Below, piece by piece: positions 4,814-38,974 of a stretch of DNA of 64,000 nt (within the stretch, counting starts at the first letter, position 1; each line of letters starts with the position of its first letter). The stretch spans positions 1 to 64,000 of the IMG/VR virus record IMGVR_UViG_3300021963_000113. One strand, written 5' to 3'. The position numbers and the translations under genes are program-made. Source of the stretch: a virus. The notes beneath the pieces were generated by a model that worked only from the letters and a program-made list of their open reading frames with translations, had not been told where the DNA came from and searched no databases.

Positions 4814-7800
4814 TTAAATCTCCATCAAGAACCAACCCTGCTGCTCTCCAGCGATACTATTTCCTGCTGCATCTGTTTCCCCGACATAGATAAGACCAAA
4901 AGCAGCATTTGGAGTGTTAACAACCAATTCACCACCTCCATAATTAGATGCCCCACCCAAACTACTACCAGTTGGACTTCCTTGTAGAGATGTGCCAAGA
5001 GGTGCTCTAATAACTAGATTGACACTAAAGTTTAGAGCTCCACCAACATCAACAACTCTAATTGTATCTCCAGTAAGAGCGTCCTGAGGAAGTAATAAAA
5101 CTAAAGTAGATGAAGGTCTAATCAAGTATTGAATATTTGGTCTCAATTGATATTGAGTATCAGATTGGGCAGATGCTTGATTGTTTCCTTGAGCACTAAT
5201 AAAGACTGTTTTTCTGCCACCATTAGCATTATAGAAGTTTTCGTGTCCGAAAGCTTGTATAGAAGCATCCTGTCTAATTCTAAATGGTTTTGAATTATTA
5301 TTACCTAAATTATTAATACTTAAGTAATTAACAGCAGCAGTAGGAGTACTAGTATAAGAGCCATGTAATGTAAGTGTTGCACCAGTGGCAGCAGAAGTTA
5401 ATTCTCGTCCAATTACTGTACTACCTAATTGAGCGTCAACAGAGAATCTAGTAGTAAATGGATTTTGTCCAGTTTCCGTTGATGCGGGAGTAGTTAAAGT
5501 ACCAACTGTCAAGTCATCGCCAACACGTAAAGTGCCTGCAATTTTAGTATTGCCAGTAGCACCCAATACTTCAAGTGCAATATTTTGTGCTACATCTTCT
5601 CTTCCTTTATCGAAATTACCAGAAGCAAAGAAGGAATCTTTAAAGATTTTGAGATTACCACCATTATAGATGCTTGTATTTCCAGATGCGGATTCGACAT
5701 AGAATTTTGGAAGAGATCCATTAGTAATTACGAAATACTGTTTTGCTGGTGTAGAAGTAGAAGTATTACCACTCAACTCAATTGAATTATGTACAATTAA
5801 GTTTCCGCCACCAGTTGCAATAATTGGATTTCCGTCCTTATCAACATCTGGTTTAGAAGTGCTAGATGGGAATCCATAAGAATCTGCTAGATTCTGGTCA
5901 TTATCAGCATCATTAAATGGTTTAGTTGTATCATAACCAATTACAACGTCACCAGAAATTTGTGTGTTACCTGTAGTTGATATTGTTTCAAATACTTTTA
6001 ATGCATCTTTTTCAAATGATTCATTACCAAAATCTCCATTATTAATGACAAACTTCTGAGCATCTGCAGGATTTACCTGTGTAATTCTCACATATTCGCC
6101 ACCTTCATTCAAACTTACCTTATTAAGTCTAAACAAATCATTAATTTTGATATTTGCAGAGAATTCAGCAACATTAATAGCATTGCTAACGGCCGTTATT
6201 GGATTTGGATCTATATACGATGCATTTTGTTGCTCAACTAATCTGTAAATTCTCTGTCCATCTGGGTGAGATGATGCAGCTGTTCCTCTTTGTGCTCTTA
6301 TAACTTCAACGTAGAATGGTTGTGGGCTATTAGGCACAAATGTGGATGGGAAATTAACTGTCTGAATAATTTCTTCACCAATTAAATACAATTGATTAAT
6401 ACCAATACCCGTTGGATTACTAATAGGAAGATTCCATGTTTGAATTCCATTAAAAATTCTATTCTTGAAAGAATCGTTGCCCCAGGGAACATCACCAGTT
6501 GTATCAATCACAGTGGAGAATAATCTCATTCTAGCATTACCTGCATCAGTAGTGCCAGATCTAAGTGCAATAGTGATATTATTATCAGAACTATTTTTTA
6601 ATGTAAATCCTGTGGAATCTCTACTTGCAACATAATAAGTTACATTAGTAGAAACGCCAGTTAGATTACCAACATCAAAAAATACTACCGCATCGTTTTG
6701 ACTAAACCAATAATTATCAGAAAGTAATTTATTATTTACTACTGTATTGATTCTAACAGTGCCATCAAAATTAGGAACAACAGAGAAATAATCGATATTC
6801 AAATTATCAAGACTACCAACCGACTGAGTAAGTCCTATATTTGTAATTACAGTACCAGTTGCTGCAGCCTGTGGATAATTAATACCAGGATTAGTATAAG
6901 TAAATGAATTTGGTCCAGTTACAGTAATTGCTACTTGTCCGACCGTATTAAATGAATCGACACTACTTACAATTTGAGCAGTAGAAGAAATATTATGTGG
7001 GGAAACAGTGGTTACAGTCGCAACGCCATTAGATCTTGTAAGAGTTGCAATTCTAATAGTGCCAAAGATATTTCTATTAATACCAAGATTGGTGTTTTTC
7101 AATCCACCATTTTGAGTAACATCAGATTCAAAGAATGAAGAACCTAATACTTTCAATCCATTTCTGATTGTAGTTGTGCCAGCAACACCACCAAGAGTTA
7201 ATGTACCAACACTTAAACCAATATTAAGTTTAGTAATTCCAGATGGGAATAGAGTGAATTCATCATTCAATGAAGTGGTATTAATTTCACCACCATTAAT
7301 AGTTAATACACCATCAACTATAGTCTGATAATTTTTAATGTTGAAGAAACTGGACTGTCTGTTTAAGAATGCTCCACCAAAAGTAATATTTGATGAATAT
7401 GCAGTATCATTATTTTCAACCGTGCCAATATCAATTATAGAATTAGTAGCATTAGTATGAATATTGAGAGTTGATGCACCAGTTACCGCAGTGCCAATAT
7501 TTACAGTTTGCTGGGTTGTTGCGAGATTTCCAACATTAACTGTTGTTGCATATCCAGCAAGAGTAAGATTAGTAGTGCTAGTCTGATTGGCAATTGTAAA
7601 GACACCCGAAGTAGTGCGAATATCTCCACCATTTACATCAATATCAGATTCAAATCTGAAATCACCAGTGATTCTACCAGTGCCAGCAACCACAAGTGCT
7701 CTATCCAATGCACCATCAGCAATATTAATACCAACTCTACCCTCATTATTTGTAGCAATTCTAAATGTTGCTGTGGTATCTGGATTCGCACTATCACCAC

Positions 7801-10800
7801 CGACTAAGAAAGCATGTCTTGTTGGTAATGGAGTGCCACCATTAAGATTAGAGAAGTTTGTTTGCTTCTTGCCGCTGATAAAGGCGTTACCAACAACATC
7901 AAGGTTTGCTCTTGGCTCAGTTCTTGTTGGGGCAATAAATCCAGTTGCATAATCAGTAGAAAGAGCTCTAGCAAGAGTGTTAATACCTAACTTATAATCA
8001 CCATATGTTTCTGTTTCTGTGCGAAGTGCTTCAGCACCAATAACACCAACTTCTTTCCACTGCGACTCACCACGAGCAATTTCAAGAGTGCCTTGAATGA
8101 TTGGATTTGTTGAAGAAATATATGGAGGATTGCCAGATAATGTAGCTTCAGACGCTCTTCTCGTTAGGAGATAAACATAACTGTTTGATTCGGAGTATTC
8201 ATATCCTTCAGATGGATTGTCGTATACAGTGTGGACACCATTAATAAACTGAAGTCTATCTGTGCCGCCAGTGATTCTGATTTGCGTTGACCTTGTGATT
8301 CCGAGAGAAGCTCCAGGATTAGAAGTGCTAAAATTAATTTTTCCAATCTGGAAAATTAATTTAACAACATTGAGGTTTGGATAGAATTGTACGCCTGTAA
8401 TATCAATCGATGATTCTTGTCCAGCAGGTGCGCCAAGTCTATATGCAACATAAGAATTTGCATAAATCCAACCAAGAGAACCAGTATAATTAATCTGTGC
8501 CCCTTTGAGTATTACATCACCAGAAAGAGGAACAGATGAACCAAAGGCAATAGTTTGTGAAGAATCAAATCTTGCTTTAGCACCAACAGTGAATTGGTTA
8601 GGAGTTACGTTTGTAATTGAAGTGCGGAATGAATAACGCTGGGTGCCGCGTGTATTCATATCGAATATAGCAGCTCTTACTCTATTCTTATCAATTACAA
8701 CGTCACCAGCTCTTGTAGTATCAAGTTGGGGGTCATCATCACCTGGGAATACACCCTGTCTATCTCCAGGTCTAGAAACAATAGTGAGAGATGGAGGCGT
8801 CATGATTGCCTCAAACTCTGGGTCAACATTAATAGTAACTGGAGAGTTGAAGAAGTTAGTTAAATTTGGTGGAGCATTGAGAGTGATAATATTCTCAAAA
8901 GTAACGGGATCTTCAAATACCGTTACGAGGCTACCGAAATCTCCATCCTCTTCTGTCTCTTCATCTGTAATAATAGCATCGAGAAACTCTTCTTCACCAG
9001 TAATAGCATTAATCTTACGGTTACCGATGTAAAGCTCACCATTAGAGTTAATACCAGTATAGAATACAATACCAGCATCTTGACGCTTGGACTGTGCATA
9101 GTAATCTTGTACAGAAGTTAAGATAACAGTTTGTCTTGCTGGGAAACCAGTTGAGTAGTTACCAGGACCAAAACCAAGATATTCAAACGTGTGGTTACCT
9201 GCACGAGCAATAGATGGTCTACGTAATTCAACATAGATTCTTTGCTCTAATGGGAATTGAGAATCACCAGCAATAGGAATTAGTCTTTCCTCAGCCCCAG
9301 AAGACGCTGCGCCAGACCTTGCTTCAATCTTAGTTGCATTTGTAGTGAATTCATATCTACCAGATCCAGGATCTTGAATGAAATCTAATACTGCTTCCTT
9401 AGTGATGCTATTCTTAGCATCATTAATTGTTACTAGACCATGGATGTAGTTATCTGCCGCACAAACAGATGCTGGTGGGTCGATGATAGTTGTATTCTTA
9501 TTACCACCTTGAGAATCAGAACCATCATACTGGAATAATAGTGCATCATTTTTATATGATAGTGGATATAGTCTAGATACTGGTTGACTAAACTTAAAGT
9601 TTCTGAAGTTGGTACCAACTCCAGATCCAGTTGGATATGGGGAAATATCACCACGAATACACGTTAGGTAGTAAATACCATCTTGCTGGCGTGGAATTCT
9701 TCTTTGAATAGTTTCAATTTTGTAAATATAATATGTTTGTGCTAGGTCTTCTACATCTTCAACACTCACAACACGATACTGTCTAGCAGCATCGTCAGTA
9801 ATGATGTCACCTGGAGTTACTGTGTAAACATTAGATGCCTCAACTGCATATAAGAAATTTTTCTTATCCTCTTTTCCAAAGTTTGGTCTAGAGATAAGTT
9901 CAGCAATTACATTTGCTTCCCCATCAATTTCCTGAATAAAGAATGTTTGAGTCTTTTCATCAAAATCTAATTCGCCTTCCAAATCCTTTAGAATGAGATA
10001 ATTGAAAGTTTCTGTGCCACCCTCTACTGGCTCTGTTCCATACCATGAGTGGACAATAGCAGATCCAGTGTATTCACCATACCATCTAATTCTCTTTTCA
10101 GGAACAAAGTTTCCATTACCACCCTGAGGTTGTGCAACTTTTACAGTTACAAATCTCTTTGCTTTTAGCGATTCTACATCAAGTCCATGGTCGAATACAA
10201 CCATTTCCATGTATCCACCTTCAACAATCTTCGCAGATTGAATTGTAAATGAGATATTACTTTCAGTCTTGGTGCCTTCAATTCTCTTTCTAATTTCTGG
10301 ATTATAAGGATCGTAAGTTCCCAATACATTAGTTACACCAATTCTTTCTCTTGGTGATGGACCATTCTGGAAGAATGTCGCATCTTTCTGGTCGTTAGCA
10401 GAAACAGGCTTAAGTAGTAATCTCTGAGGTAAAAGTTTTCTAGTTTCGTCAGTTCTAATTTTAATAGCAAAACCATTGATAGGATCTCTAACATCATCAC
10501 GATAGTTAGGAATTACATAACGTAGTTTGTAAGTTCTATCGTCATTTTCTCTAGTATCATCTGCTCTGTAGAAGAATGAGTCTGGAGTTCTGGGTGGTTT
10601 GTTAACATATGAAGAACCTCTAGATGGGTCATTCAATGTTAATCTTTCGTAGATTTCATTACCTTGTAGAAGAGTTCTGATAAACCAACCACCCTGTACA
10701 GGGTCATAACCAATAGGACTTCTCTTTCTGTTTGCAAGTACAAAGAATTCTTCTCCACTTGGGAAATTAAATTGTACAGCATTTTGTCTATTAATAGCAT

Positions 10801-13800
10801 CAGATACTGATGTATAAATCGAGAATTGATTATTCTTGGTATATGTTGCTGGTCTACCAACATAGTAGTTTCTATTTGTTTCTAGTCTACCACCAGATGT
10901 TTTTGCAGGTAGAGTAGCGAGAGCAGCAGCATCAACGATTCCATTGGTTAGATTTTCTTCTAGTGGATAGAAGAATACTTGCTGAACCTGGACACCAGCA
11001 TATGCAGTATCAAATACGTTATTGGTTGAAGTTTCAAATACTCTGGAACTTGTTAATTTAGCAGTATAGCGGTGCAAATCGTAATTAACATTTGTCAAAT
11101 ATTGATGAACTTCAATCTGAACATCTGGGTCAATTCCACTAGTCTCAGAAGAATAAATGTAGTTACCAGCAGTAGCATTTTCGATGCTAGTTGCAAGCAT
11201 AAATGACTGAGTATTATTAAATTGTGCTGTTGCTCCACCAGCAGAATAATCATATGGTGCAGTAATCTTACCAGGAGCAATTACATAATAATTTTTGTTG
11301 CTTTCAAATCCTTTTGGTAATCTTACGAGACGCTTATCAACATCAACTGGTTTACCAGTAGAAGGATCTTTTCTTGGAACAGCAACAAGTCTTACTGGTG
11401 TGCCTGTTTCTAGATTGTGTGGATTGCTACCAGATACTTTAAATAGAGTTGCTCTCTGTGCAAACGAAGTTGTGTTTACAAGTTGAGAAATGAGAGGCTC
11501 GGCATCAACACCATTCTTAATAATGTTTTCAATTACTCTCATCTTCTCGATGATAGCATCCTTAGTACCAGCACACTTGTTAGCACTTGTGTCTACAATA
11601 ATACTATTGTCTCTTTCAGGCTTTGTTCTTTCAGTATATTCATCTGTACCAAAAGTTTTTGGAGGAAGTGGAGATAGATTTTGAAGAGCGCCGAGAAGAA
11701 TATCAAACTCAGTGGCAATGGTATAAGCAACATCTGCACAACGAGGAACTCCAGCAGTTGTAGTATCAATAGTAGGATCAATTTGATAATCTAAAGTTGT
11801 ATTTGGGCGCTTAACATACAATGGATCGGAGTCTGTGCCATCACCAGTTCTCCAGTTACGCATCGCAAGAATAGCAAGATCTCTTGCCTTCTTATATGCA
11901 TATACACTAATATCCAACTCACCAATAAGTGATGCTGCCCCAGCATTATATTTCAGAGCAGGATACTGATAAGAACCATTTTGTAGTTTTGTGAGAAGAA
12001 TATTGAATAGTGAATTAATTTCGTTTCTTACATCAAGATAGGCATTAGGATTATCATTTGGAATGTTTGGACCAGGAACGCCTAATTCTGCTGGGCCAAC
12101 AGGAATACCAAAATCTCTTACATTGAGTTGATTTGTTACTGCCTTGAAGCAAAGGTCTCTAGCAGCTTGGAATGCAGTTACTGACTGAGCAATTTCGCCA
12201 GCAAGTCCATTGTTTAATAGAGTATTGCCAGTGCTATCAAAATATGACTTGGTTGCAGTAATAATATTATAGTTTCCACCTAGAGCAAGGTCTTCTGCGA
12301 TAGAATCAACAATGAATCCGATGTCACGCTTACACTTAGCTTGGAATTCTGGTGCGCTACCATAATTAATTGGAGGTAATGCTGGATTTTGTGTAGTGCC
12401 AGTTACTAAATCACCTTGACGAATTCTAGCAAAAATAATATTAGAAAGTGTATCTAATGTTGCTTGGACATTAGAGCAAGATTGACTATCATCATTGTTA
12501 GCAGTTACACCAGGAGTGCCAAATACGCTTAATCCAGATTGAGGAGTGCCAGGTGCTGGATCTCCAGTTAGAGAAAGATCTTTAACAGTTAGTTGGTTAG
12601 TAATTGCCTTCTTCATTTCGGCAATTGCCGCAGTGTAGGCAAAGATAGATTTTTGCTCTTCACCTTGAAGACCATTCTGAATCCATGCCTGCTCTACTGT
12701 AGAAACAGTTACTACAACATCATCAACTACATTAACACCACCAATAGAAGATCCAGGAATAGTTACTGTATTACCAGCAACATACTTATAACCAGCAGCG
12801 TTAATAGTAACAGATGTAATTGCACCAGTAGAGCTTCTGGTTACATTGAAGGTAGCTCCCACACCGCTACCATTTGTCGTAGTTGAAACGCCAGTGTAAA
12901 CTCTATTCTGTCTATTGGAAAGAGTAGTGCCATTGCTACGGGTAAAGGTTAAGATTTTGCCATTAACTTTATCTTCAATAAAATATTGACGAATAAAATC
13001 AATAGAATATGAGTTTCCTAGTGTAGTTAAATCAGTAGAAACTGCATCAATAAAATATCCGATATCACGCTTACACTTGTTTTCTAAATCTGCTGGAGCA
13101 GGTGTTGGAAGGCCGCTAGCAAGTAGAGCATTATAAGCATTATTAATAATTTCTGCTCTATTTTGCTGAATTAGACGATATGAATCCTTATATCTTGAAT
13201 AAACATTTGTCTGAGTATCTCCACCATCTGTAAATCCAGGTCCACCATAATAGAAATCTGGATATTCGATAGCAAGTTTTGCAGCTGCTTTGTCTACAAT
13301 TTCTCTTCTATTTGAAAGAATAAGATTCTTGGAATAAGCATAACGAGAAGGAGCTCCAACATATGCTTCTGTAGCAGTTACAATACCAGAGTTGCCAGTT
13401 GTTTTAAGGTCTTGAATTACACCATCAAGCACTAAACCAATATCACGCTTACACTTAGTATCGTTTGGCACTGTAACTGTTGGGTATTGTGCCTTAGCAA
13501 GATTGAGTGCTTCTTCTGCAATAAAATCTTTGTTGCGATTGATTAAAGTGCCAGCATCAAATGCTCTACCAGATGAGGTAGCAAACTTACCTTGCTCTAA
13601 TTCAAAGTTGAGTGTAACACCACCAACACCAATAGAGTTTGCAGTAATGGTAATGAGTGCTTGCACCTCCTCAGTATCATTTCTGTTACCAAGTTTAAAT
13701 TGAGTTGTGTTTACAATTTCTCTAATATAGGTGCCAGCAGGAATTGGATTTGTTTGACCAGAAGCAACTGTAGCAGTTACTTTCATGCCCTCTACTAATC

Positions 13801-16177
13801 CAATAGTAGTGATATTGTTGGGTACAGTAACTGTTGATTGTCCAACAAAAGTTGAGCATCCTTCAATACGGAAATTCCAATTACGCATTGCAGCAACTGC
13901 AAGATTTCTAGCGTAATTAAATGCATCAAGAGTTTCTTCCTTCTCTGTGCTGATATAATCTAATTCGTTACCAACATAGTATGCTTGTGCTGCCTGGACG
14001 CTATTAACATTACCACCAACACGAAGGTCATTGGCAACTGCTTCTAGGATATAACCTACGTCACGCTTACACTTATTGATGCTGATGGGTCTAGTGAGAA
14101 GATATGGATACTTACGAGTGATGTATCCATATGTTTCAGCAGCAATGAAATCTCTGTTTAAATCAATAAGATTTGCAGCATCTTGGTCGTTGTTTGAAAC
14201 TCCAGTTGCTACGCTTGGACTCAAAATAGATAGAGAAACATTCCACTTCTGATAACCAGATGGAGAAATTTCTGCACTGCGAATAGCTCCAGTAAATCCC
14301 TGTGCTGGATCTAGTTTAACATAAATTTTTTCGTGTGCAGCTGCGCCAAGACGATAACCATTTACAGTAGTAGATGGTTTTTGTAAAGGATTAGATGCTT
14401 CATCCTGACCATAATATAGTTTTGTTGTAACAGAAGAATTGCCGTTGGGACCATCAAAGTTTAGAGCATTTGGATTTCTAGACTTGATTTGATTGAATGT
14501 GAAATACTGGAATTTCTTAGTTGTAGTGGTAACTTTTCTTGGTGGGACAATGTGCGAAATATATCCACCTTGATCCTGGGCAAAGGAATATCCCTTATAA
14601 CCAATAGCATGTAGAGAGGTATTACCAAAGTTAGAGTTTGAGTTGGTGATAGACATATCACCACCAGACTCCATGAGGAAGTGGTCAGCGAAACCTACAG
14701 CGAAGATAGAAACGTTTTGAATGAATGCGTCATTCGATGCTTTAACGTGGAAGTTTCTCCAATCATCTTTCCAGTATGCGTCACCCTTAGTGTGGTAAGG
14801 TGTGGTTGCAAACGCATCAGTAAGAGGTGCCTGATTCCAAGTGTTAGAGAATTCATCGTAGCGAATGAATGCTCTGTCGTCTCTCTGTAGCGAAACACCC
14901 GTATACTGGGCGATAACCATCGACTTGAAACCACTTGCCTTGGATCCATCAGCGTGGATGCCACAGATACCCCACGTAGAGCGGATAGAGACGTTGAAGA
15001 CGTATGGTGAGGCAGATTCTACCGAGTCAACTTCCGCTTGCGTGATGGCGTTTGTATCGAGCGTAGGAGGCGTAATTGGTTGCCCAATTCTATCGCCTAA
15101 TCCTACAGCAGCAGCATTCTTACCTTCTACACGATACGAGAATTCTTTAGGATCACTAATGCTGATTCCTCTAACAGCAAATACACCAGTGAGAGGGTCA
15201 TTTGCAAGTGGAATTGGCTCGCTAGCACCTGCAGGAAGAGTCGAACGAAGATTCGCAACAGCAACTGCTTGTCCTACATAATATCCATGATTTGTCTTCG
15301 TTCTAACAGTGACATCTAAAGCAGTGGTGCCAGGGACATTATTAACTTCGATAGAATCAATACGAATAGCATCTTGAAGAGGACCAACAATTCTATTTTC
15401 TTGTGGTCTCTGAGTAAATTCACCAGGATCGTCAATTGTTGGTTGGAATAGAGAGAATGCCTTAGCAATCTTTCTGTAAAGTAAACCTAGATCGTCTCTA
15501 CTAGCAAATTCAAAGTTACAAATTTTGTGGTGAGAATAATAAGGTATAGATTTAATAGTAGAATTTGGTTGAGAATAAACTTTACCAATTCCTTCATTTT
15601 CATCATACAATGGTGAATTAGGATCAACATCACCATCAAGAATAGTAAACTGCCAGAAATAGCATCCACCAGTTACGTTAAAAAGGGTTGTGCGACCGAT
15701 ATCCTTGTCTGCTGGGTCTGGAACATAGAGAGGATGCAGACGAGTCCTACGGAGGTCCATACCAACGAGAGAGGTGCCTCTAGGAATCGTAGCGCCACCG
15801 TTAGGACCGTTAAACTTGTAGAGAATATTATCAGGATTGCTGAGGTCTACAATCGAGTTATCTTCCCACTCTTGTGTTGCTTGATTGAATGCAAAAGGAA
15901 CAATTTCCTCTGCATTCATGATGCCAGGACGGTTATCAATATAGTGGTTGCCTGGCGACAACATAATTGTAAATTGGTCAAAACGATCATTCTCTTGACC
16001 AGGAACATACGAATACCTAGCAACCTCTAGGAATGCTCTCTGAATTGTGAGGAAAGGACGGGTTGGGGAGTTGCCTCTATTGTCTAATGCATCAGAAGCA
16101 TTAAAATCGTCAGGTGAAACATATAGATATCTTCCAGTTTTACTAGAAATTAAATTCTCTAATTTGGTTAGTGGCAT
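4814..16177 (-). CDS. Giant virion structural protein (3787 aa), baseplate or fibre associated
   Basis: One uninterrupted frame of 3787 residues. The start (MPLTKLENLI, then GRYLYVSPDDFNASD and RPFLTIQRA) is of the kind found in very large structural proteins of marine T4-like phages. Around residues 640 to 1290 there are four copies of a helical module centred on KCKRDIG. The last 1300 residues are Gly/Thr/Asn-rich with TLNI/VNIG/LTLGG-type beta repeats like those of tail fibres, and the C-terminus is GWFLMEI. It has a strong ribosome site (GAGGAAC) and a late-type promoter just upstream. Baseplate or long-fibre attachment is inferred from its place next to the collar proteins. A specific T4 gene number cannot be assigned from sequence alone. 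Confidence 0.85.
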   Translation of the reverse strand: MPLTKLENLISSKTGRYLYVSPDDFNASDALDNRGNSPTRPFLTIQRAFLEVARYSYVPGQENDRFDQFTIMLSPGNHYIDNRPGIMNAEEIVPFAFNQATQEWEDNSIVDLSNPDNILYKFNGPNGGATIPRGTSLVGMDLRRTRLHPLYVPDPADKDIGRTTLFNVTGGCYFWQFTILDGDVDPNSPLYDENEGIGKVYSQPNSTIKSIPYYSHHKICNFEFASRDDLGLLYRKIAKAFSLFQPTIDDPGEFTQRPQENRIVGPLQDAIRIDSIEVNNVPGTTALDVTVRTKTNHGYYVGQAVAVANLRSTLPAGASEPIPLANDPLTGVFAVRGISISDPKEFSYRVEGKNAAAVGLGDRIGQPITPPTLDTNAITQAEVDSVESASPYVFNVSIRSTWGICGIHADGSKASGFKSMVIAQYTGVSLQRDDRAFIRYDEFSNTWNQAPLTDAFATTPYHTKGDAYWKDDWRNFHVKASNDAFIQNVSIFAVGFADHFLMESGGDMSITNSNSNFGNTSLHAIGYKGYSFAQDQGGYISHIVPPRKVTTTTKKFQYFTFNQIKSRNPNALNFDGPNGNSSVTTKLYYGQDEASNPLQKPSTTVNGYRLGAAAHEKIYVKLDPAQGFTGAIRSAEISPSGYQKWNVSLSILSPSVATGVSNNDQDAANLIDLNRDFIAAETYGYITRKYPYLLTRPISINKCKRDVGYILEAVANDLRVGGNVNSVQAAQAYYVGNELDYISTEKEETLDAFNYARNLAVAAMRNWNFRIEGCSTFVGQSTVTVPNNITTIGLVEGMKVTATVASGQTNPIPAGTYIREIVNTTQFKLGNRNDTEEVQALITITANSIGVGGVTLNFELEQGKFATSSGRAFDAGTLINRNKDFIAEEALNLAKAQYPTVTVPNDTKCKRDIGLVLDGVIQDLKTTGNSGIVTATEAYVGAPSRYAYSKNLILSNRREIVDKAAAKLAIEYPDFYYGGPGFTDGGDTQTNVYSRYKDSYRLIQQNRAEIINNAYNALLASGLPTPAPADLENKCKRDIGYFIDAVSTDLTTLGNSYSIDFIRQYFIEDKVNGKILTFTRSNGTTLSNRQNRVYTGVSTTTNGSGVGATFNVTRSSTGAITSVTINAAGYKYVAGNTVTIPGSSIGGVNVVDDVVVTVSTVEQAWIQNGLQGEEQKSIFAYTAAIAEMKKAITNQLTVKDLSLTGDPAPGTPQSGLSVFGTPGVTANNDDSQSCSNVQATLDTLSNIIFARIRQGDLVTGTTQNPALPPINYGSAPEFQAKCKRDIGFIVDSIAEDLALGGNYNIITATKSYFDSTGNTLLNNGLAGEIAQSVTAFQAARDLCFKAVTNQLNVRDFGIPVGPAELGVPGPNIPNDNPNAYLDVRNEINSLFNILLTKLQNGSYQYPALKYNAGAASLIGELDISVYAYKKARDLAILAMRNWRTGDGTDSDPLYVKRPNTTLDYQIDPTIDTTTAGVPRCADVAYTIATEFDILLGALQNLSPLPPKTFGTDEYTERTKPERDNSIIVDTSANKCAGTKDAIIEKMRVIENIIKNGVDAEPLISQLVNTTSFAQRATLFKVSGSNPHNLETGTPVRLVAVPRKDPSTGKPVDVDKRLVRLPKGFESNKNYYVIAPGKITAPYDYSAGGATAQFNNTQSFMLATSIENATAGNYIYSSETSGIDPDVQIEVHQYLTNVNYDLHRYTAKLTSSRVFETSTNNVFDTAYAGVQVQQVFFYPLEENLTNGIVDAAALATLPAKTSGGRLETNRNYYVGRPATYTKNNQFSIYTSVSDAINRQNAVQFNFPSGEEFFVLANRKRSPIGYDPVQGGWFIRTLLQGNEIYERLTLNDPSRGSSYVNKPPRTPDSFFYRADDTRENDDRTYKLRYVIPNYRDDVRDPINGFAIKIRTDETRKLLPQRLLLKPVSANDQKDATFFQNGPSPRERIGVTNVLGTYDPYNPEIRKRIEGTKTESNISFTIQSAKIVEGGYMEMVVFDHGLDVESLKAKRFVTVKVAQPQGGNGNFVPEKRIRWYGEYTGSAIVHSWYGTEPVEGGTETFNYLILKDLEGELDFDEKTQTFFIQEIDGEANVIAELISRPNFGKEDKKNFLYAVEASNVYTVTPGDIITDDAARQYRVVSVEDVEDLAQTYYIYKIETIQRRIPRQQDGIYYLTCIRGDISPYPTGSGVGTNFRNFKFSQPVSRLYPLSYKNDALLFQYDGSDSQGGNKNTTIIDPPASVCAADNYIHGLVTINDAKNSITKEAVLDFIQDPGSGRYEFTTNATKIEARSGAASSGAEERLIPIAGDSQFPLEQRIYVELRRPSIARAGNHTFEYLGFGPGNYSTGFPARQTVILTSVQDYYAQSKRQDAGIVFYTGINSNGELYIGNRKINAITGEEEFLDAIITDEETEEDGDFGSLVTVFEDPVTFENIITLNAPPNLTNFFNSPVTINVDPEFEAIMTPPSLTIVSRPGDRQGVFPGDDDPQLDTTRAGDVVIDKNRVRAAIFDMNTRGTQRYSFRTSITNVTPNQFTVGAKARFDSSQTIAFGSSVPLSGDVILKGAQINYTGSLGWIYANSYVAYRLGAPAGQESSIDITGVQFYPNLNVVKLIFQIGKINFSTSNPGASLGITRSTQIRITGGTDRLQFINGVHTVYDNPSEGYEYSESNSYVYLLTRRASEATLSGNPPYISSTNPIIQGTLEIARGESQWKEVGVIGAEALRTETETYGDYKLGINTLARALSTDYATGFIAPTRTEPRANLDVVGNAFISGKKQTNFSNLNGGTPLPTRHAFLVGGDSANPDTTATFRIATNNEGRVGINIADGALDRALVVAGTGRITGDFRFESDIDVNGGDIRTTSGVFTIANQTSTTNLTLAGYATTVNVGNLATTQQTVNIGTAVTGASTLNIHTNATNSIIDIGTVENNDTAYSSNITFGGAFLNRQSSFFNIKNYQTIVDGVLTINGGEINTTSLNDEFTLFPSGITKLNIGLSVGTLTLGGVAGTTTIRNGLKVLGSSFFESDVTQNGGLKNTNLGINRNIFGTIRIATLTRSNGVATVTTVSPHNISSTAQIVSSVDSFNTVGQVAITVTGPNSFTYTNPGINYPQAAATGTVITNIGLTQSVGSLDNLNIDYFSVVPNFDGTVRINTVVNNKLLSDNYWFSQNDAVVFFDVGNLTGVSTNVTYYVASRDSTGFTLKNSSDNNITIALRSGTTDAGNARMRLFSTVIDTTGDVPWGNDSFKNRIFNGIQTWNLPISNPTGIGINQLYLIGEEIIQTVNFPSTFVPNSPQPFYVEVIRAQRGTAASSHPDGQRIYRLVEQQNASYIDPNPITAVSNAINVAEFSANIKINDLFRLNKVSLNEGGEYVRITQVNPADAQKFVINNGDFGNESFEKDALKVFETISTTGNTQISGDVVIGYDTTKPFNDADNDQNLADSYGFPSSTSKPDVDKDGNPIIATGGGNLIVHNSIELSGNTSTSTPAKQYFVITNGSLPKFYVESASGNTSIYNGGNLKIFKDSFFASGNFDKGREDVAQNIALEVLGATGNTKIAGTLRVGDDLTVGTLTTPASTETGQNPFTTRFSVDAQLGSTVIGRELTSAATGATLTLHGSYTSTPTAAVNYLSINNLGNNNSKPFRIRQDASIQAFGHENFYNANGGRKTVFISAQGNNQASAQSDTQYQLRPNIQYLIRPSSTLVLLLPQDALTGDTIRVVDVGGALNFSVNLVIRAPLGTSLQGSPTGSSLGGASNYGGGELVVNTPNAAFGLIYVGETDAAGNSIAGEQQGWFLMEI
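12324..14074 (-). repeat. Four KCKRDIG modules in the giant protein
   Basis: The 14-base plus-strand string tcacgcttacactt occurs four times in the same reading frame, at 12324, 13065, 13443 and 14061. It encodes Lys-Cys-Lys-Arg-Asp near residues 1281, 1034, 908 and 702. Each is preceded by an N-R/K-x-F/E-I helix ending in Tyr-Pro in most copies, and followed by a D/E-A/G-V/I-x-x-D-L, x-x-G-N pattern. The module is about 120 to 250 residues apart, with inserts between copies. Confidence 0.8.
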
Positions 16178-25577: not shown

Positions 25578-28454
25578 TTACTCTATTAAATCTGCGTATA
25601 AAAAGTCAGCAAAAGTTGCTGCCATTGACCTTCCTTGTGGGACATTGCCACCAAAACCACCAACACTAAATGATTTACTAGATGCTGATGTAGATGCTGG
25701 CGGAGTGATAACTGCAGCTGCTGTTGCTGTTGGTTTAGATTGACTTGGTGATGGACCCACTCTCTGTGCAGCAGCAGCAGGTGGAGCTGGTTTTGGTGGT
25801 TTTGGTTTTAATTTTGCTGCCTCTTGTTTATTTAACCTAGCAGCAAGTGACTTTGCTAATGCTTCTTGCTTTGATTTTCTTTCTGCTGTTGCTCCTTTCT
25901 TATTCCAAACCTGCCACCATGGGTTTCCACCAACTGCTCTGTCGCTCACTCCCATGTTAACCCACTTGCCATTCACTTTCTGCACACCCAATCTTGAGCG
26001 TTGTGCTGATGCTCTTTGTGCTCTCAATCTAGCAGCATGTGCATGTCTGGAATCCATAGGTCCACCAGATGCATAACCTTTTAGTGGTGGTAGCCCCATC
26101 GTTCTTCTCATTTCTGGGTCAGTTACATCTTTATATCTTGCGTTATATCCTAACCCACTATTAGTATTTCTTTGATTGTTTACTAATTTACCCCAAGAGA
26201 ATGGATTCCACCATGCTCCACCATCTTCTGCTTGTTGCTTTGGTTTATTCTTATTCCAATTAAATATAGGACTTACATCACCAGTTGGTAAATTTGTTTG
26301 TGCTGGATCATTAGTTGGATTTGGCGCTGGTTGAGCAGATGGTGTAGGTGGAGGATTAACTGGTTGACCATTATTTCTTTGTGTTGGTAAAGCAGGTGGT
26401 TGTGCTCCAGCTCTTCTCACATAATCAATTTTATCTAATGCTATAGTGCCTCTAGTTACCTGGCCGCCTTGATTTCCACCAATGATTTCTACTGCCCCAT
26501 TCTTAGGACTACCAGCAGCAAACATAACATGAGACCTAGATCCACCACCGTAGTCACCAACAATAACATCTCCATATTGTATATTCTTTTTGTCTACAGG
26601 TGCTCCCCAGTTTTCAAAACTATCAGCTGCTGGAGAATCTGATCCTTTAATTCCCTGTCTTTCAAGTTGAGCATTTACATATGCAGCACACCATGGACCT
26701 TTTGTTGGATCTATAATACCTCTAGCACCACTTTGCATAATTTCTTCTCTCATCTGAGATGCATCTTTCCCAATGTCTGCTTCCAAATCACCCTTCAAAC
26801 TTTCTGGTGTGCCGCCTGGTGGATTATCACCCCCATCTCCATCACCTTTCTTCTTGTTAGCATCTCCACCACCACCTATTTTCATTCCATCAAAAAGATT
26901 TTTCATAAAATCTTTAGCAGCTTTGTTTGTATCAACTACACCAAACTTTCCTTTGCCAATAGATGATGTAAATGTAAGATTAGATATACCAAATTCTTTT
27001 GCTGCTTTTCTAATGTCTTGCTTGACCATATCACCTGCAGTGCCACTCTCTGTCTTGCCGAGCATACCAGAAGCAACACCAAGAATCATTGCACCAACAG
27101 TATCGACTGCAGTTTCTCCAGCTGGTGTATCTTTAGTATCACCAAACATTTTTTTACCAATGTTTCTGTTTAAAGGAATAACAGAATCACCAGGATTTAA
27201 ATTTGTCTTAGTTGGATTATCTACTAGTCCTCCTTCTGCCATTGGAGAAACAGGAGATGGTGGTACTGCTGATGGGACTATACCACCTTCAGATGCCTGA
27301 GTTCTATCGATATTGGATAAAACATTATTATATTTTTCTCTCTCTCCAAAAATTCTTTCATTGAGCATTCTAGCTCTATCTGCCTGCGGACCTTCTCCTC
27401 TGACATCATAAAGATTTTTTTTGTTTGGGTCTGTTTGGAATAGATTGTAAATAGAAGATCCCAAATCTCCCAAAGAAGTGAAGAGATTATCATCTGGATT
27501 TAATACTTCTTTAGTTTGATTATATAAATCAAACACCATCAATGGTGCAGCTAATTTACCTAATACTCCACCCATTCCTTTAGGCATTCCAGGCATCTTA
27601 AATCCTTTAGGCATTCCAGGCATCTTAAATCCACCTGAAGATGTGGCACCACCACTAGTTGTAACCTTTGGTCCAGTGCCAGGCATTCTAGGACCAGGAG
27701 GTTTGCCACCCGCTCCTTGAGTTACTGGAGATTTTTTAAATGGATTTAATTTTTGTAACCACTTATCAGGGATGAAGTTACTTGCTAAATCCCCAAGGCC
27801 AAGTAAATTTAACATCCAATCGAAAGGTCCACCGCCTCCGCTATCATTACCTTCCCCACCTTCCTTTCCTTTCTGAGATTCTCCCAGTGGAGATCTAGTG
27901 CTCGAAGTATCCTGTGTCTTCTCTAATTGCTTTTCTGCTCTAGCATATTTTGCTTCTTCTAATGCTTTTCTTCTTAAGTCAGTTTGAGAATCTAAAGTTT
28001 CTTTTATAGCTGTGAGTGTGCCTGCAGAGCTAGTTGTTGCTGCTAAATTCTGACCAATGCCATCGTTGATTCCACCCAGTTTAGCAACCATTACACCAGT
28101 ATCTTTTAAGATAGCAGTGAATCCACCTGCGATAAACTCTTTTAGTTTAGCAGACCCGTTGGCACCGTCTCCTTCTGTCGGTGGTGTTACTGGTTTATCT
28201 TTTGGTTTATTCCAACTAAATTGCTTTGCCCAATTAGACTTTGCTTTCTTAGACTTGATTGGGTTGAATTGATTTGCTAAAGAAGACTTAAACAAAGACC
28301 CCTTCTTAGGAGTTTCGCCTGCTGCTTGAGCTTTCTCTCTTTCTTCCTTAGCATTTTCAGCAGCATCACGAATTTTTGCACCAATAGTCTTGGCGATATT
28401 TAATACACTAGGACCAGTGCCAGCTTCTGTTGGTGTAGTGGTAAATGCTGCCAT
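25578..28454 (-). CDS. Tail-hub protein with CHAP-like cysteine peptidase domain (958 aa)
   Basis: Residues 570 to 670 resemble the CHAP/TIGR02594-type hydrolase: GPWCAAYVN with catalytic C589, then GDVIVGDYGG and SHVMFAAG with H642, then IIGGNQGGQV. The domain probably cuts peptidoglycan peptides during DNA entry. The rest is low complexity: Lys-rich N-terminus, Gly/Pro linkers, a GFKMPGMPK duplication near residue 280, and Pro/Asn/Gln runs. PSAVPPSPVSPMAEGGLV is like tape-measure proteins. It lies between the lysozyme-domain protein and gp27, as T4 gp28/gp29 do. Exact T4 equivalent unclear. Confidence 0.8.
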   Translation of the reverse strand: MAAFTTTPTEAGTGPSVLNIAKTIGAKIRDAAENAKEEREKAQAAGETPKKGSLFKSSLANQFNPIKSKKAKSNWAKQFSWNKPKDKPVTPPTEGDGANGSAKLKEFIAGGFTAILKDTGVMVAKLGGINDGIGQNLAATTSSAGTLTAIKETLDSQTDLRRKALEEAKYARAEKQLEKTQDTSSTRSPLGESQKGKEGGEGNDSGGGGPFDWMLNLLGLGDLASNFIPDKWLQKLNPFKKSPVTQGAGGKPPGPRMPGTGPKVTTSGGATSSGGFKMPGMPKGFKMPGMPKGMGGVLGKLAAPLMVFDLYNQTKEVLNPDDNLFTSLGDLGSSIYNLFQTDPNKKNLYDVRGEGPQADRARMLNERIFGEREKYNNVLSNIDRTQASEGGIVPSAVPPSPVSPMAEGGLVDNPTKTNLNPGDSVIPLNRNIGKKMFGDTKDTPAGETAVDTVGAMILGVASGMLGKTESGTAGDMVKQDIRKAAKEFGISNLTFTSSIGKGKFGVVDTNKAAKDFMKNLFDGMKIGGGGDANKKKGDGDGGDNPPGGTPESLKGDLEADIGKDASQMREEIMQSGARGIIDPTKGPWCAAYVNAQLERQGIKGSDSPAADSFENWGAPVDKKNIQYGDVIVGDYGGGSRSHVMFAAGSPKNGAVEIIGGNQGGQVTRGTIALDKIDYVRRAGAQPPALPTQRNNGQPVNPPPTPSAQPAPNPTNDPAQTNLPTGDVSPIFNWNKNKPKQQAEDGGAWWNPFSWGKLVNNQRNTNSGLGYNARYKDVTDPEMRRTMGLPPLKGYASGGPMDSRHAHAARLRAQRASAQRSRLGVQKVNGKWVNMGVSDRAVGGNPWWQVWNKKGATAERKSKQEALAKSLAARLNKQEAAKLKPKPPKPAPPAAAAQRVGPSPSQSKPTATAAAVITPPASTSASSKSFSVGGFGGNVPQGRSMAATFADFLYADLIE

Positions 28455-28477: not shown

Positions 28478-31400
28478 TTAGGTTATAGATGTATAATGAG
28501 ATAGTCTTGCCTTTTCTCTAGCAGCAACCAAAGGATTTGCGGGGACATGAATATACTTAGTGTCACCTTTAATATAAACAGGCACCTGTTGTATGACAGG
28601 TGTGATAGTTTGTATCATAGCAACAGATGTACCACTAACAGTGTCTTTAGGAATTGGTATAGGGTTTACTTGTCCCTCTGGAATTTCTGGAAGTGATGCT
28701 CCCTTAACAGGAGTGCCACCAAGTAGTCTTAAAATCTCAGCACCAGATTCATCCTCTGCTCTATAAATTCTTTTAGGTTTAAATCCTTCTCCATATACGG
28801 GAGTCCTACCAGTTTTTGGTGGTGCTAATAAGTTATCAATAAAATTAACAAATCCAGCAACTTCTACACCAGCTTGTCTTCCTATTTGCTCGTATCTATT
28901 AAATGCTTTTGCTGGATCTTTATAAACATTATATTCATTATTTTCTATAGGAGCAATCACCATTTTATTTCCGATGTGGAATAACAATTCTCTACCATGT
29001 CCTATGTAAGGTTGACCACCTGTATATTGTGGAGGAATATTGAAACCAGATGGAGGACCAGAAATTTCAAATAATCCACGCACTTGATCAGAAAAATTGT
29101 TAGTGATGTTTTGCACTGCACCTTTAGATGCTCTTCTAGTAGAAGCACCTTTAGCTTTATCAATTGCTTTTTGTAATTTTTCTCTATTCTCAAATTTCAA
29201 ACCTCTCCATTCTGATATAAAATTATCAACATTTGCTCCTGTTTTTAGTCTATATTTAATTAAAGCAATACCTAACTTATCTTGAGTTGATGCATTAAAT
29301 TTATCATTAGGAGAAACACCAGTTTCTCCATAACTTTTACGATTAATCAATCCATCCATGGTGCTGCCAATAATTTGGTATCTACCAGCTGCATGAATTG
29401 GTGGGTCTTTATCTTTTTGATGTTGCATAATCTCTGCAACAGTCATATCAGTCAGTTTTCTTTTTATTGGTCCTTGATCTGAAGGTCCACTGTAACCAAT
29501 AACAGAATAACCATTATTAGATCCTCCTTCATTGTAAGCAATATAACCACCAGCAGAAGTACTTTCTTTGCCAGCAATCATATCTAATAATTCTTTATAG
29601 TCACCTGCATCAGGACTAGTTGTGTTATCATCATCATCTCCACCATCACCACCGTCTTCACCATCACCACCTATATTAATTCCAAACATCTTGAAGAAGT
29701 TTGCAAAGAATTTGGATAATTCTTTTGCTCCTTGCTCTTCAGTCATTGCAGCGGAGTCTAACTCAGCAGCAAATGCTCCTTGATTTAAACCAAATAAAGT
29801 TGCTAATCCACCCAACAGGGGAGAAAACATCTTAGCAATTACACCACTGAAGGGACCAGCAGCTGCAACTATACTGGCAAGAGCACCAGAAATTTGAGCA
29901 CCAATTACTTTGAATGGCATTTCCATTACATTGGCAAATGGTTGCACCTTCTTCATTAAGTCGCCAGCAGCACCAAGACCAGTGGCAAGAATATTGCTAC
30001 CCGTGCCTTGCATTACACCACCTTCAGCAAGCTTCTTTGGAGCACTCCTAACAAGTATTTCTGGACCAGCTTCACCTATCAATGCTGGAACGGTATTTCT
30101 AACAGACGCAGCACCTTCAGAAAACTTCATTCTCCTACCAAACCTACCAAAAGAAGGCATTTTAAACCTGTTTCTCTTTGGCACATCACCTGTTATTTTA
30201 GGACCACCTCTTCTGGTAGTAGACCTCTGACCACCTCCCTTTATTTTCTTTGCAATATCTCTTGTATCATCTGCTGCCATTAACAAATCAAACCAATCTA
30301 ATCCACCCTCTGATTTTCCAAGTAAACCACTTAAATCAATAGATGGAATATTAATATCACCTCCCGCTGCTTGCTGAGCAACTGCTTCATCAGATCCAGA
30401 ATCAATTTCAACATCAACCATCTTGGATATAGATGTTAGTATTCCCTCTAATAAATCTGAATTCCTTTCACTGGCATTAACAAGTTGCTCTAGAGTTTGT
30501 GTCTGTTTTGTTATTTGTTTATTAATTGCGCCCAATGCAATTGATACTTTTTTAAATCCCGTTGCTAAATCACGTATCTCGTTTGCTTTCTTTTTCTTCT
30601 TGGGGTCTGAATCTCCATAGTCAAACTGGTCTCCAAATCCTGCTTGAGATTTGGATTGTTTAGATGGCATACTCTCAATGAATGCCCCAAATGTAGTGTC
30701 AAATGCTCTGCCACCAAACTGATAACCTATAGACTTCTTGATAAAATATCCAGGCTCTAATACTTCTTGAGGTATATCAGCACCATTAGACTGTGCTTCT
30801 AATGCTCTTTCTTTCTGCTCTTTGGCATCTTGAAATGCAGTCTTTACTTTTTTTCCTATCCATGAACCAAATGCTAACACAGATGGTCCTTCTCCTGGTG
30901 CTTTACTTACACCACCAGAAAATAATGTTTTCCCAACAAATGATCCTGTCTTTTTTAGACCACCACCAAACATTCTACCAAGACGTTTTCTTCTACTTGG
31001 TGGTGTTGGTGGCTCATTACCACCAGAAGGTGCCTTTGGTTTCTTTTTCTTTTTAACTGTATTCTTAGGTCTCTTAAGTTTTCTTCTAGAAGGTTTTTTC
31101 TTTTCCTTTTTTTTCTCAGTCTTAGGAACAGTTTCACTTCCCTCCCAAGGATCAGCAGGTCTCTGATACTCATTAGGAGGTGGCGAAATCTTCTCTTGAA
31201 TATCTTCTAATATATCTATCTTGTCTTCAAGGATTTCAGAAACTTCTGCTTTAGTTTCTGCTTCTTGAATCTCTTCTTGTGCTTCTACTAATACTTCCGA
31301 AGTTTGCTCAACAATTTTTTCACTTACTGCTTCCTCAAATGGGTTGTTGAGATACGCTTCTACTAACCACTCTTGATATAATCGTTGTCTCTCCATCCAC

Positions 31401-31642
31401 TGTATAGGAGTGCCACTTTCCTGATCCAAAGAGGGATAACCTCTTGGATCTTTTTTTATATTAGCAATTAACCTATCGGCATCTTCATCAGATAGATTCA
31501 CATATGAAGTATAGCTTTCATCTCCCTGTCTTCTACCAGTTAATTTTGATTTTAAAATCAACCACAACCTAGAGTTAGGATTAATCCTACTCCAAGGCAT
31601 CTTTGGGTGTAATACTCCTTCTGGCGGTTGTGGTAGATTCAT
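28478..31642 (-). CDS. Tail tape-measure-like protein with lysozyme-like domain (1054 aa)
   Basis: Contains PALIGEAGPEILVRSAP near residue 510, a motif of tail tape-measure proteins. Residues 690 to 830 form a lysozyme-like domain: LLDMIAGKES with probable catalytic E693, then AAGRYQIIGSTMDGL and ATQDKLGIALI. Residues 90 to 180 are coiled-coil-like (Glu/Ile/Lys), and residues 180 to 230 are a strongly basic Lys/Pro stretch. It follows gp26 and gp51, the order seen for tail chaperones before a tape measure. The ATG overlaps the gp51 stop in ATGA. It probably combines length control with a muramidase. Confidence 0.78.
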   Translation of the reverse strand: MNLPQPPEGVLHPKMPWSRINPNSRLWLILKSKLTGRRQGDESYTSYVNLSDEDADRLIANIKKDPRGYPSLDQESGTPIQWMERQRLYQEWLVEAYLNNPFEEAVSEKIVEQTSEVLVEAQEEIQEAETKAEVSEILEDKIDILEDIQEKISPPPNEYQRPADPWEGSETVPKTEKKKEKKKPSRRKLKRPKNTVKKKKKPKAPSGGNEPPTPPSRRKRLGRMFGGGLKKTGSFVGKTLFSGGVSKAPGEGPSVLAFGSWIGKKVKTAFQDAKEQKERALEAQSNGADIPQEVLEPGYFIKKSIGYQFGGRAFDTTFGAFIESMPSKQSKSQAGFGDQFDYGDSDPKKKKKANEIRDLATGFKKVSIALGAINKQITKQTQTLEQLVNASERNSDLLEGILTSISKMVDVEIDSGSDEAVAQQAAGGDINIPSIDLSGLLGKSEGGLDWFDLLMAADDTRDIAKKIKGGGQRSTTRRGGPKITGDVPKRNRFKMPSFGRFGRRMKFSEGAASVRNTVPALIGEAGPEILVRSAPKKLAEGGVMQGTGSNILATGLGAAGDLMKKVQPFANVMEMPFKVIGAQISGALASIVAAAGPFSGVIAKMFSPLLGGLATLFGLNQGAFAAELDSAAMTEEQGAKELSKFFANFFKMFGINIGGDGEDGGDGGDDDDNTTSPDAGDYKELLDMIAGKESTSAGGYIAYNEGGSNNGYSVIGYSGPSDQGPIKRKLTDMTVAEIMQHQKDKDPPIHAAGRYQIIGSTMDGLINRKSYGETGVSPNDKFNASTQDKLGIALIKYRLKTGANVDNFISEWRGLKFENREKLQKAIDKAKGASTRRASKGAVQNITNNFSDQVRGLFEISGPPSGFNIPPQYTGGQPYIGHGRELLFHIGNKMVIAPIENNEYNVYKDPAKAFNRYEQIGRQAGVEVAGFVNFIDNLLAPPKTGRTPVYGEGFKPKRIYRAEDESGAEILRLLGGTPVKGASLPEIPEGQVNPIPIPKDTVSGTSVAMIQTITPVIQQVPVYIKGDTKYIHVPANPLVAAREKARLSHYTSIT

Positions 31643-31758
31643 TGTTGCTGACTATTCTTTTGCTCTTCTAGATAATTACTAAGCATAGCAACGAAAACTT
31701 CTCTCTCCCAAGGTATCATATTTTCTAATTCAGTTAATGAAAACTTATGGTGATACAT
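31639..31758 (-). CDS. 51: gp51-like baseplate hub assembly protein (39 aa from its own ATG)
   Basis: Reads MYHHKFSLTELENMIPWERE and ends EEQKNSQQQ. The LENM-P-ERE pattern is typical of T4-type gp51. The frame extends upstream without a stop to the end of gp26, where a slippery heptamer would join it to gp26 by a -1 shift. So it may be made as a gp26-gp51 fusion (about 295 residues), as a free protein from the internal ATG at 31758, or both. Its TGA overlaps the next start codon. Confidence 0.7.
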   Translation of the reverse strand: MYHHKFSLTELENMIPWEREVFVAMLSNYLEEQKNSQQQ

Positions 31759-31808
31759 TAAGTTGAAATTAGTTTGATAAAAGTTAGCAAGGTTTTCATG
31801 GAAGAGAC

Positions 31809-32525
31809 TTATGCGAAAAAATTTGTAAGACCCTCAATAGTATATTCAGACTCAACATTTGTCTTTGGATTCTTCAACGTAAATGTATGTGATACCTTAG
31901 GCATCGTAGCAAAGAAGTTTTGAATTGCTTCAAACTGTTTACTTGTCAGACCTTCTAAGTAATCAGAAATATCTTTCTTGGAAAGACTAGACCCTTCCCA
32001 TACTTCATCACCATCGAAAATTTGCTCTACACAATCAATGATAACATCAAAAACTTCTTGCGTTGACTGCTCTTTCTGAAGAATTTGGGAAGTGATAAAC
32101 TGCTCCATACCAGGATACTTCATAATCAAACCAGCACTATCAGTAAGCATTACCTTTTTGTCATGACCTTCTGGTTTGATGACCTCAACCTTTTCTAGAT
32201 TTAATTTGTAGGGAATAGATGTTTCGCCATCATCCTTAGCAGTGAAAATCATCTCAACAATTTCACCCACAGATTTAGATCTGATTCTCAAGAAAACATA
32301 TTCTAAATCAAACATCGGCAACTCATCAACTTTAATACCTCTAGTGGTAATACAAGACTTCAAGGTTTCAATGATAGCATTACGAATCTCTTTGTCATCT
32401 TGACTCTCTGTTGCCATCAGAAGAATTTTTTCTTCCTTAACTAAAAATGGTCTATATTTAATTGTCTTGCCAGATGAGGGAAGTTGCAACTCATATGTTG
32501 GCACTGGGGGCTTTGGTAAAGACAT
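31809..32525 (-). CDS. 26: Baseplate hub assembly protein gp26 (238 aa)
   Basis: Matches the T4 gp26 family pattern: IKYRPFLVKEEKILLMA near residue 20, then EVFDVIIDCVEQIF and SDYLEGLTSKQFEAIQNFF. In T4 it helps to build the central baseplate hub. It follows the tail-tube-like gene at 32556 and precedes gp51. Its last codons contain a slippery site, so part of the product may continue into gp51. Confidence 0.85.
   Translation of the reverse strand: MSLPKPPVPTYELQLPSSGKTIKYRPFLVKEEKILLMATESQDDKEIRNAIIETLKSCITTRGIKVDELPMFDLEYVFLRIRSKSVGEIVEMIFTAKDDGETSIPYKLNLEKVEVIKPEGHDKKVMLTDSAGLIMKYPGMEQFITSQILQKEQSTQEVFDVIIDCVEQIFDGDEVWEGSSLSKKDISDYLEGLTSKQFEAIQNFFATMPKVSHTFTLKNPKTNVESEYTIEGLTNFFA
31818..31824 (-). 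other. Candidate -1 frameshift site joining gp26 to gp51
   Basis: The minus strand reads A AAT TTT in the gp26 frame, which is a canonical X XXY YYZ slippery heptamer. It lies three codons before the gp26 stop. A -1 shift there enters a frame of 59 further codons that contains the whole gp51 sequence. This parallels the G/GT tail-chaperone frameshift of lambda-like phages. Confidence 0.6.
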
Positions 32526-35241: not shown

Positions 35242-35886
35242 ATGTATTTTTCATTTGTACCCGACATCAAATACGACGAGAAACCAATCAAGTTTCCATT
35301 TTCACAGTCAGAATATATCACTGCGAAAAATTTCTTTCGTCGTTTTAAGATAGATGAGGATTACTTTCAGTATTCAGTATACTTTAATAGGTATGCAATC
35401 ACTGATACAGATAGATTAGATACCATCTCAGAAAAATTTTATGGCAATCCTTTTTATGATTGGGTGATTGCTATCACAAACAATATTATCAATACTCAAT
35501 TTGATTGGCCATTGAAAGAATGGCAGGTTAGAGATATGGTTGAAAATCCAGATGATACCCACCATTACGAAACTATTGAAGTAATAAATGCTGAAGGTAA
35601 TGTCGTGCTACAACCTGGACTGACAGTAGATGAAAGATTTGTTAATAGTGTATTCAAATATGTTGATACAACTACACCTACAGTCATCTATACTACTAGA
35701 GCTGGCACTAATGTAACTCACAGAGTTACAAATTTGGACCAAACTATCAAAGAAAACGATGCAAAGAGAGAAATTTATATTCTTAAACCAATCTATCTTC
35801 AAAGTTTCGTAACAGAATTTAGAAAGCAGAATCTATATTCGGAATCATCTAATTATATTAGCAGCACTTTAAAACAAACTGGGTAA
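35242..35886 (+). CDS. 53: Baseplate wedge protein gp53 (214 aa)
   Basis: N-terminal MYFSFVPDIKYD, then YAITDTDRLDTISEKFYGNPFYDWVIAI, written here only in part, is the LysM-like core of T4 gp53. The C-terminus ends in FVTEFRKQNLY. In T4 it is a late-joining wedge subunit. Last gene of the rightward block, followed by a strong terminator. Confidence 0.85.
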   Translation: MYFSFVPDIKYDEKPIKFPFSQSEYITAKNFFRRFKIDEDYFQYSVYFNRYAITDTDRLDTISEKFYGNPFYDWVIAITNNIINTQFDWPLKEWQVRDMVENPDDTHHYETIEVINAEGNVVLQPGLTVDERFVNSVFKYVDTTTPTVIYTTRAGTNVTHRVTNLDQTIKENDAKREIYILKPIYLQSFVTEFRKQNLYSESSNYISSTLKQTG

Positions 35887-38216: not shown

Positions 38217-38974
38217 TTATAGTCCTAAGTTTGTTTTGCTAATAAGATAACTACGGACTAATCCGCTACGTACGATGTCTTCGATTTGGAATTCAACCGT
38301 GGAAAACTCTTCCATGGTTTCAATGATACGCATAAAATCAATGATACCATTGCGCTCATGGGTTTTGATAAGGTCAGACTGCCTAACATCACCAGAGAAA
38401 TAATCTTGGAGTCTTGTCCCACACGAGTGATGATTGAATCTAACTCATGGAAGTTGAGGTTCTGCATCTCGTCAATAAGAATGATGCAGTTGTCTAGAGT
38501 GGTGCCACGAATAAAAGATGTGCTCCAGAAAGAAATGGTTTCCTGTGCCTTGAGATTGTAATACAGTTTATCAAACTCGTCATCACTAGGCATCTCAAAC
38601 ATATATTTTACCATATTCTTATATGGAATTTGATATAGAGATGACTTATCTTCATGGTCGCCAGGTAGGAAACCAATCTCGCGTGTCGCTACCAGTGAGC
38701 GGACGATGTAGATTTTCTCATAAGGGGTATTCTCATTGAGAACATCCTTGAGTGCGAGATATAGTGCGATGAATGTTTTACCAGTGCCAGCGCACCCGTA
38801 ACCAAACATGTTTTTACCTTTTGCATACTCTTCAAAATATCTTTTTTGATTTTCTGTAAGGGGCTCAATGTCTGTAAGCAATTCAGAATTGACAGGTTTC
38901 TTCCTTTTCATTTGCTTCAAGCTCATACCAGCAGGCACCACGGCACCATTTTTCTTTCTAGTTTTCACAGGCAT
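38217..38974 (-). pseudogene. phoH: PhoH-like P-loop ATPase, broken by a one-base frameshift
   Basis: Walker A GYGCAGTGKTF (residues 58-68), Walker B ILIDEMQNL and the ELDSIITRVG helix are typical of phage PhoH. The first frame stops at 38258 after an unnatural tail. Near 38398-38404 one T appears to be missing from a T run: adding it gives KIIFSGDVRQSDLIKTHERN in one frame and a normal end (SYLISKTNLGL) at 38217, for about 252 residues. This could be a sequencing or assembly error in a homopolymer, or a real mutation. PhoH is common in marine phages; its role is uncertain. Confidence 0.8.

Follow-up and report, generated by a model that had tools for sequence, protein, structure and literature searches.

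The window analysed here comprises 64,000 nucleotides of the virus record IMGVR_UViG_3300021963_000113, which is 67.8 kb in length. Its tail genes follow the order found in T4-like cyanophages, and the phage is of the marine T4-like cyanophage type. Within the window, gp26 occupies positions 31809..32525 of the minus strand, where an ATG preceded by the Shine-Dalgarno (SD) sequence AGGAG opens a frame that encodes 238 amino acids and ends at a TAA codon (31811-31809). The encoded protein matches PF12322 (E 2.2e-69) and phrog_150 (E 3.9e-73) and is the putative short (G-type, TAC-N) tail assembly chaperone. The 3' end of the gene reads ...GAG GGT CTT ACA AAT TTT TTC GCA TAA on the minus strand. 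In the -1 frame, the region termed 'gp51' (31639..31821, minus strand) extends gp26 by a putative T-type C-terminal domain; it contains no stop codon before the TGA at 31641-31639 and encodes the 60-residue peptide FFRISLFHENLANFYQTNFNLMYHHKFSLTELENMIPWEREVFVAMLSNYLEEQKNSQQQ. A -1 slip would therefore open a stop-free frame that ends at the start codon of the next gene, as the initial annotation had claimed, with the TGA overlapping the ATG at 31642-31640; the frame comprises 61 codons counted from AAA, not the 59 originally given. With base 31815 read twice, the predicted product is a gp26-51 fusion of 295 amino acids (31639..32525, minus strand), the putative long (G-T-type) chaperone.

Among 36 genes of the window, gp26 alone combines a slippery heptamer at most three codons from the stop codon with a -1 frame that stays open for a further 50 codons or more. 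A second frameshift candidate, T TTA AAA, lies three codons before the stop of the gene at 35242-35886 (plus strand) and is followed by 33 open -1 codons; it is not conserved in the closest relatives and was rejected as a chance occurrence. No meaningful Rfam match was observed near the gp26 slip site. The gene that follows (28478..31642, minus strand) encodes a protein of 1054 residues with hydrophobic segments at 575-620 and the sequence GEAGPE at 523. Its initial description as tape-measure-like is plausible on the basis of position, size, the hydrophobic segments and GEAGPE, but comparison of the protein with T4 gp29 by hhalign gave no match. A second long tail gene (25578-28454, minus strand) shows weak CHAP, TIGR02594 and phrog_1259 matches and could encode a tape measure or a hub lysozyme. 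Elsewhere in the window, positions 4814-16177 (minus strand) form a single open reading frame of 3787 residues with only a marginal Pfam match. A phoH-like gene at 38258-38974 (minus strand; PF02562, E 5e-31) continues its C-terminal part in another frame from ∼38375, apparently as the result of a small indel arising from sequencing error or inactivation.

The peptide encoded in the -1 frame matches phrog_634 (E 3e-24), annotated as 'baseplate hub assembly catalyst'. A second match, to the C-terminal end of phrog_150 (E 4e-6), indicates that other members of this family carry both parts in one protein. Structure prediction gave a model of three helices for the T domain (pLDDT 87.6), with which a fold search against the PDB returned no match, and a model of comparable quality for gp26 (pLDDT 87.8). 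When the gp26 model was used in a PDB fold search, the HK97 tail assembly chaperone 2ob9 was returned at ranks 1 and 5, although these matches are weak (E 1.0-1.8, probability ∼0.6), and another chaperone-type structure, 3fgx, appeared further down the list with an E value of at least 1. A sequence search of gp26 against solved structures gave no convincing match.

Relatives of the locus were collected by tblastn with the fusion as query, which returned 954 phage records, 646 of them with a single place that spans 80% or more of the query; among the matches listed, coverage of the fusion comes in two pieces. The set used for comparison was assembled from 80 IMG/VR loci together with phage records and, after removal of near-duplicates, consisted of 63 sequences including the window. 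The T domain is encoded in the -1 frame in 63 of 63 non-redundant sequences and in further, distant phage records. Such an alignment of junctions had been proposed in the initial annotation, and it demonstrates that both the open frame and a slippery heptamer are kept in all relatives, the latter in a form different from that originally suggested.

That form was A AAT TTT, which does lie at 31818-31824 of the minus strand and close to the end of gp26, as had been noted, but is separated from the stop codon by two sense codons rather than standing three codons before it. The conserved site is the overlapping heptamer T TTT TTC (31815..31821, minus strand), one codon further on, in which TTT would occupy the P-site and TTC the A-site and each could re-pair with TTT. 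The pattern NNT TTT TTH is present in 63/63 sequences (TTTTTTC in 55, TTTTTTT in 5 and TTTTTTA in 3), and the T6 run is always in register, beginning at a third codon base. The codon before the run is AAT in 37 sequences, AGT in 16, TCT and GAT in 4 each and GCT in 2, so that the residue preceding the slip varies over four amino acids whereas the third base of its codon is T in every case. Given that this codon varies while its third-base T stays, T TTT TTC is the selected site and A AAT TTT, itself not conserved, is not; a constant T in this position is what tandem slippage on T TTT TTC would require. Furthermore, the second Phe codon at the slip is TTC in 55 of 60 cases as compared with 23% elsewhere in the same genes (TTT 541, TTC 166), a strong preference for what is otherwise the minority codon, although binomial figures overstate its significance because the relatives are not independent. 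Slippage on either heptamer would give the same 295-residue fusion.

Upstream of the heptamer, at a distance of 9 nucleotides, lies the SD-like element GAGGG (31831..31835, minus strand). A sequence of this type, encoding Glu-Gly, is located exactly 9 nucleotides before the heptamer in 60 of the 63 sequences, and GAG is used for the Glu of this element in 51 of these 60, whereas it accounts for 28% of Glu codons in the rest of the same genes. Spacings of 9-14 nucleotides have been described for the stimulation of -1 shifts by SD-type elements (PMC5009743), and GAGGG, with a spacing that fits this range, is a probable stimulator of this kind; its pairing with the usual anti-SD extends over only 4 bp. 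A strong stem-loop or pseudoknot downstream of the slip was not found when relatives were compared (mean z ∼ -1 at best), and the downstream folding energy in the window itself is only -2 to -3 kcal/mol.

To what extent the -1 frame is constrained at the protein level was evident from 103 pairs of close relatives. The dN/dS ratio was 0.039 for the -1 codons that separate the gp26 stop from an internal ATG, 0.075 for -1 codons after this ATG and 0.111 for the body of gp26, while the same bases read in the other two frames gave ratios of >2. The stretch from the gp26 stop to the internal ATG is therefore under strong purifying selection in the -1 frame, tighter than that on gp26 itself, and selection on codons upstream of the ATG argues that 'gp51' is read through the junction. 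A start codon provides no general explanation for this first stretch, given that 14 of 63 sequences have no ATG, GTG or TTG before -1 codon 21 and another 29 have TTG only.

The internal ATG is located at codon 21 of the -1 frame (31756..31758, minus strand) and had been put forward initially as a possible source of free gp51. The codon exists and is found at the same place in 59 of 63 sequences, being replaced by ATA, GTC or AAG in the other 4. Its retention would be expected if the locus comprised two genes, with translation of a free gp51 of ∼39 residues beginning at ATG 31758 through reinitiation or internal initiation, and gp51 is indeed annotated alone in several cyanophage records. However, the ∼16 -1 codons before this ATG, which are the most constrained of all, would then stay untranslated, and the in-register T6 run would be left unexplained. 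The published records also disagree, in that the annotated gp51 start differs among them (L088, L098), P-SSM7 keeps only 31 codons, and four (S-CAM1, DSL-LC03, Syn30 and S-CAM8) have no annotated gp51. An SD-like sequence is absent before the internal ATG in nearly all relatives; given that SD sequences are also missing from 19 of 33 larger genes of the window, this is by itself a weak argument against free gp51, and selection on the codons before the ATG is the stronger one. Production of gp51 solely from its own start is thus very unlikely. An intermediate possibility, which overlaps with the frameshift reading, is that the fusion is made and that a free T domain arises in addition, either from ATG 31758 or by cleavage. 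Conservation of the Met would fit such an arrangement, but no observation requires an extra product, no SD is present, and the conserved part of the T domain begins well before the Met, so that an additional free form is improbable.

The T run itself could in principle act at the level of transcription, since slippage of RNA polymerase on a homopolymer would produce a mixed pool of mRNA that is then read normally by ribosomes, as is known in bacteria and phages (reviewed in PMC5009743). In most relatives, however, the run consists of only six T residues, shorter than is typical for such slippage, and in 63/63 sequences it starts at a third codon base, a register needed for a tandem slip by the ribosome but not by the polymerase; GAGGG likewise stands at a spacing appropriate to the ribosome. 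Slippage in transcription is accordingly a highly improbable origin for the fusion. As for a single gene split by an assembly or sequencing indel, the apparently disrupted phoH-like gene does indicate that indels occur in this record, but the position of the split is identical across 63 sequences and recurs in the genomes of cultured phages, which refutes this reading, the likelihood of which is negligible.

A programmed -1 frameshift is the preferred reading, and on this comparative sequence evidence gp26 and 'gp51' are very probably one gene read in two ways. We infer that most ribosomes would stop at the TAA at 31809 and release the 238-residue short form, and that some, at a rate to which the GAGGG element may contribute, would slip back by one base near the end of gp26 and yield the long gp26-51 form. 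By analogy with lambda G and G-T, the shared N-terminal part may coat the tape measure protein, while the helical C-terminal T domain may recruit tail tube subunits. If the two parts bind these partners as in lambda, the ratio of short to long product would matter for tail assembly. The most likely assignment for gp26 and gp26-51 is as short and long tail assembly chaperones of the lambda G/G-T type. The initial proposal that gp26 and gp51 act as such a pair gains support from the comparative evidence and from the paralogues of T4 described below.

The stop codon of the -1 frame and the start codon of the next gene share the sequence ATGA (31639..31642, minus strand), an arrangement that may permit translational coupling. 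In 52 relatives with an ATG start at the downstream gene, the exact stop/start overlap was observed in 26 and a TAATG-type overlap in 7. An SD sequence precedes this gene in 3 of 33 cases with overlapping starts versus 12 of 19 with non-overlapping starts. That the -1 stop overlaps the start, and that overlapping starts usually have no SD, may point to coupling of the downstream gene to frameshifted ribosomes. There is an outside chance that the downstream candidate tape measure gene is translated mainly by ribosomes that have shifted frame, in which case a single slip rate would set both the ratio of the chaperones and the dose of tape measure protein.

In T4, the same two domains are distributed differently. 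T4 gp26 matches positions 14-235 of the 282 in phrog_150, and T4 gp51 matches 13-280; correspondingly, PF12322 spans the whole length of T4 gp26 and residues 1-201 of T4 gp51, and the T profile matches gp51 at residues ∼200-245 (E 1e-5 and 2e-4). T4 gp26 and gp51 are thus paralogues, encoded divergently on opposite strands (L087, 7803-9229), with gp51 carrying the T domain in frame. Aeromonas phage 25 (L099, 1762-3165) has the same arrangement of separate, paralogous gp26 and gp51. Given that gp51 consists of a gp26-like part plus T, phages of the T4 type use two genes, one short and one long, in place of the single gene of phages with the slip. The latter condition, with the T domain detected in the -1 frame by the T profile and TTT TTY at the end of gp26, was observed in Caulobacter phage Cr30, the KVP40-like phage phi-pp2, Aeromonas phage 65, Stenotrophomonas phage Mendera, Agrobacterium phage Atu_ph04, Acinetobacter phage SH-Ab 15599 and Vibrio phage D479. 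In the Ackermannviridae-type Salmonella phage GG32 and Vibrio phage D532, the -1 frame beyond the end of gp26 gives a weak T-like match, and there is no T6 run. Long branches prevented confident placement of the T4 duplication in a tree of the gp26 domain. Slippage and gene duplication would represent two natural solutions to the same need for chaperones of two lengths.

Cyanophage gp51 was reported by Sullivan et al. in 2010 to be ∼20% of the length of other gp51 proteins, without the first ∼200 residues, an observation unexplained there (PMC3037559); the frameshift would explain both this short gp51 and the genomes in which no gp51 is annotated. Several hundred records show the pattern, and their annotation ought to treat gp26 and gp51 as a single gene with a frameshift. 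T4 gp26 and gp51 have been described as hub assembly chaperones (PMC3004832). Tail assembly chaperones of T4-like phages were identified by Vladimirov, Gautam and Davidson in 2022 (Virology 566:9-15, as cited in PMC10885494 and PMC12846349), work to which T4-like phages in which a short gene is accompanied by a long, fused one are attributed in PMC10885494, and poly-T -1 signals in T4-like TAC genes in PMC12846349. Given these attributions, the frameshift, although kept in hundreds of relatives, is not new in kind, having been recognized for other phages, T4-like ones included; a search of the openly accessible literature found no paper on the cyanophage gp26/gp51 frameshift itself. In the lambda model, the binding partner of G is the tape measure protein and that of T is the tube protein, with a ratio near 30:1 (PMC5009743), and slip rates of 6-7% have been measured for HK97-like chaperone genes (PMC3711429).

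The locus resembles that of lambda gpG/gpG-T in the -1 slip, predicted for the window phage, close to where the short chaperone gene ends, in the T extension and in its position between the tail tube gene and a long gene; it differs in the greater length of gp26 (238 residues) and in the heptamer, which is T TTT TTC. The slippery heptamer of lambda is G GGA AAG. From the citing articles, the chaperones of Vladimirov et al. appear to belong to the same gene family and to share the short form and the long form with a C-terminal extension. In T4 itself, genes 26 and 51 on opposite strands replace the slip, whereas the window phage relies on one locus, which contains T TTT TTC. The chaperone gene of phage Adele (Vandenendeviridae/Andersonviridae, PMC12846349) also precedes the tape measure gene and carries a T-rich motif at which a -1 slip occurs, with a -1 frame that is open in all relatives, but its motif is GTTTTT and the phages concerned belong to other families.
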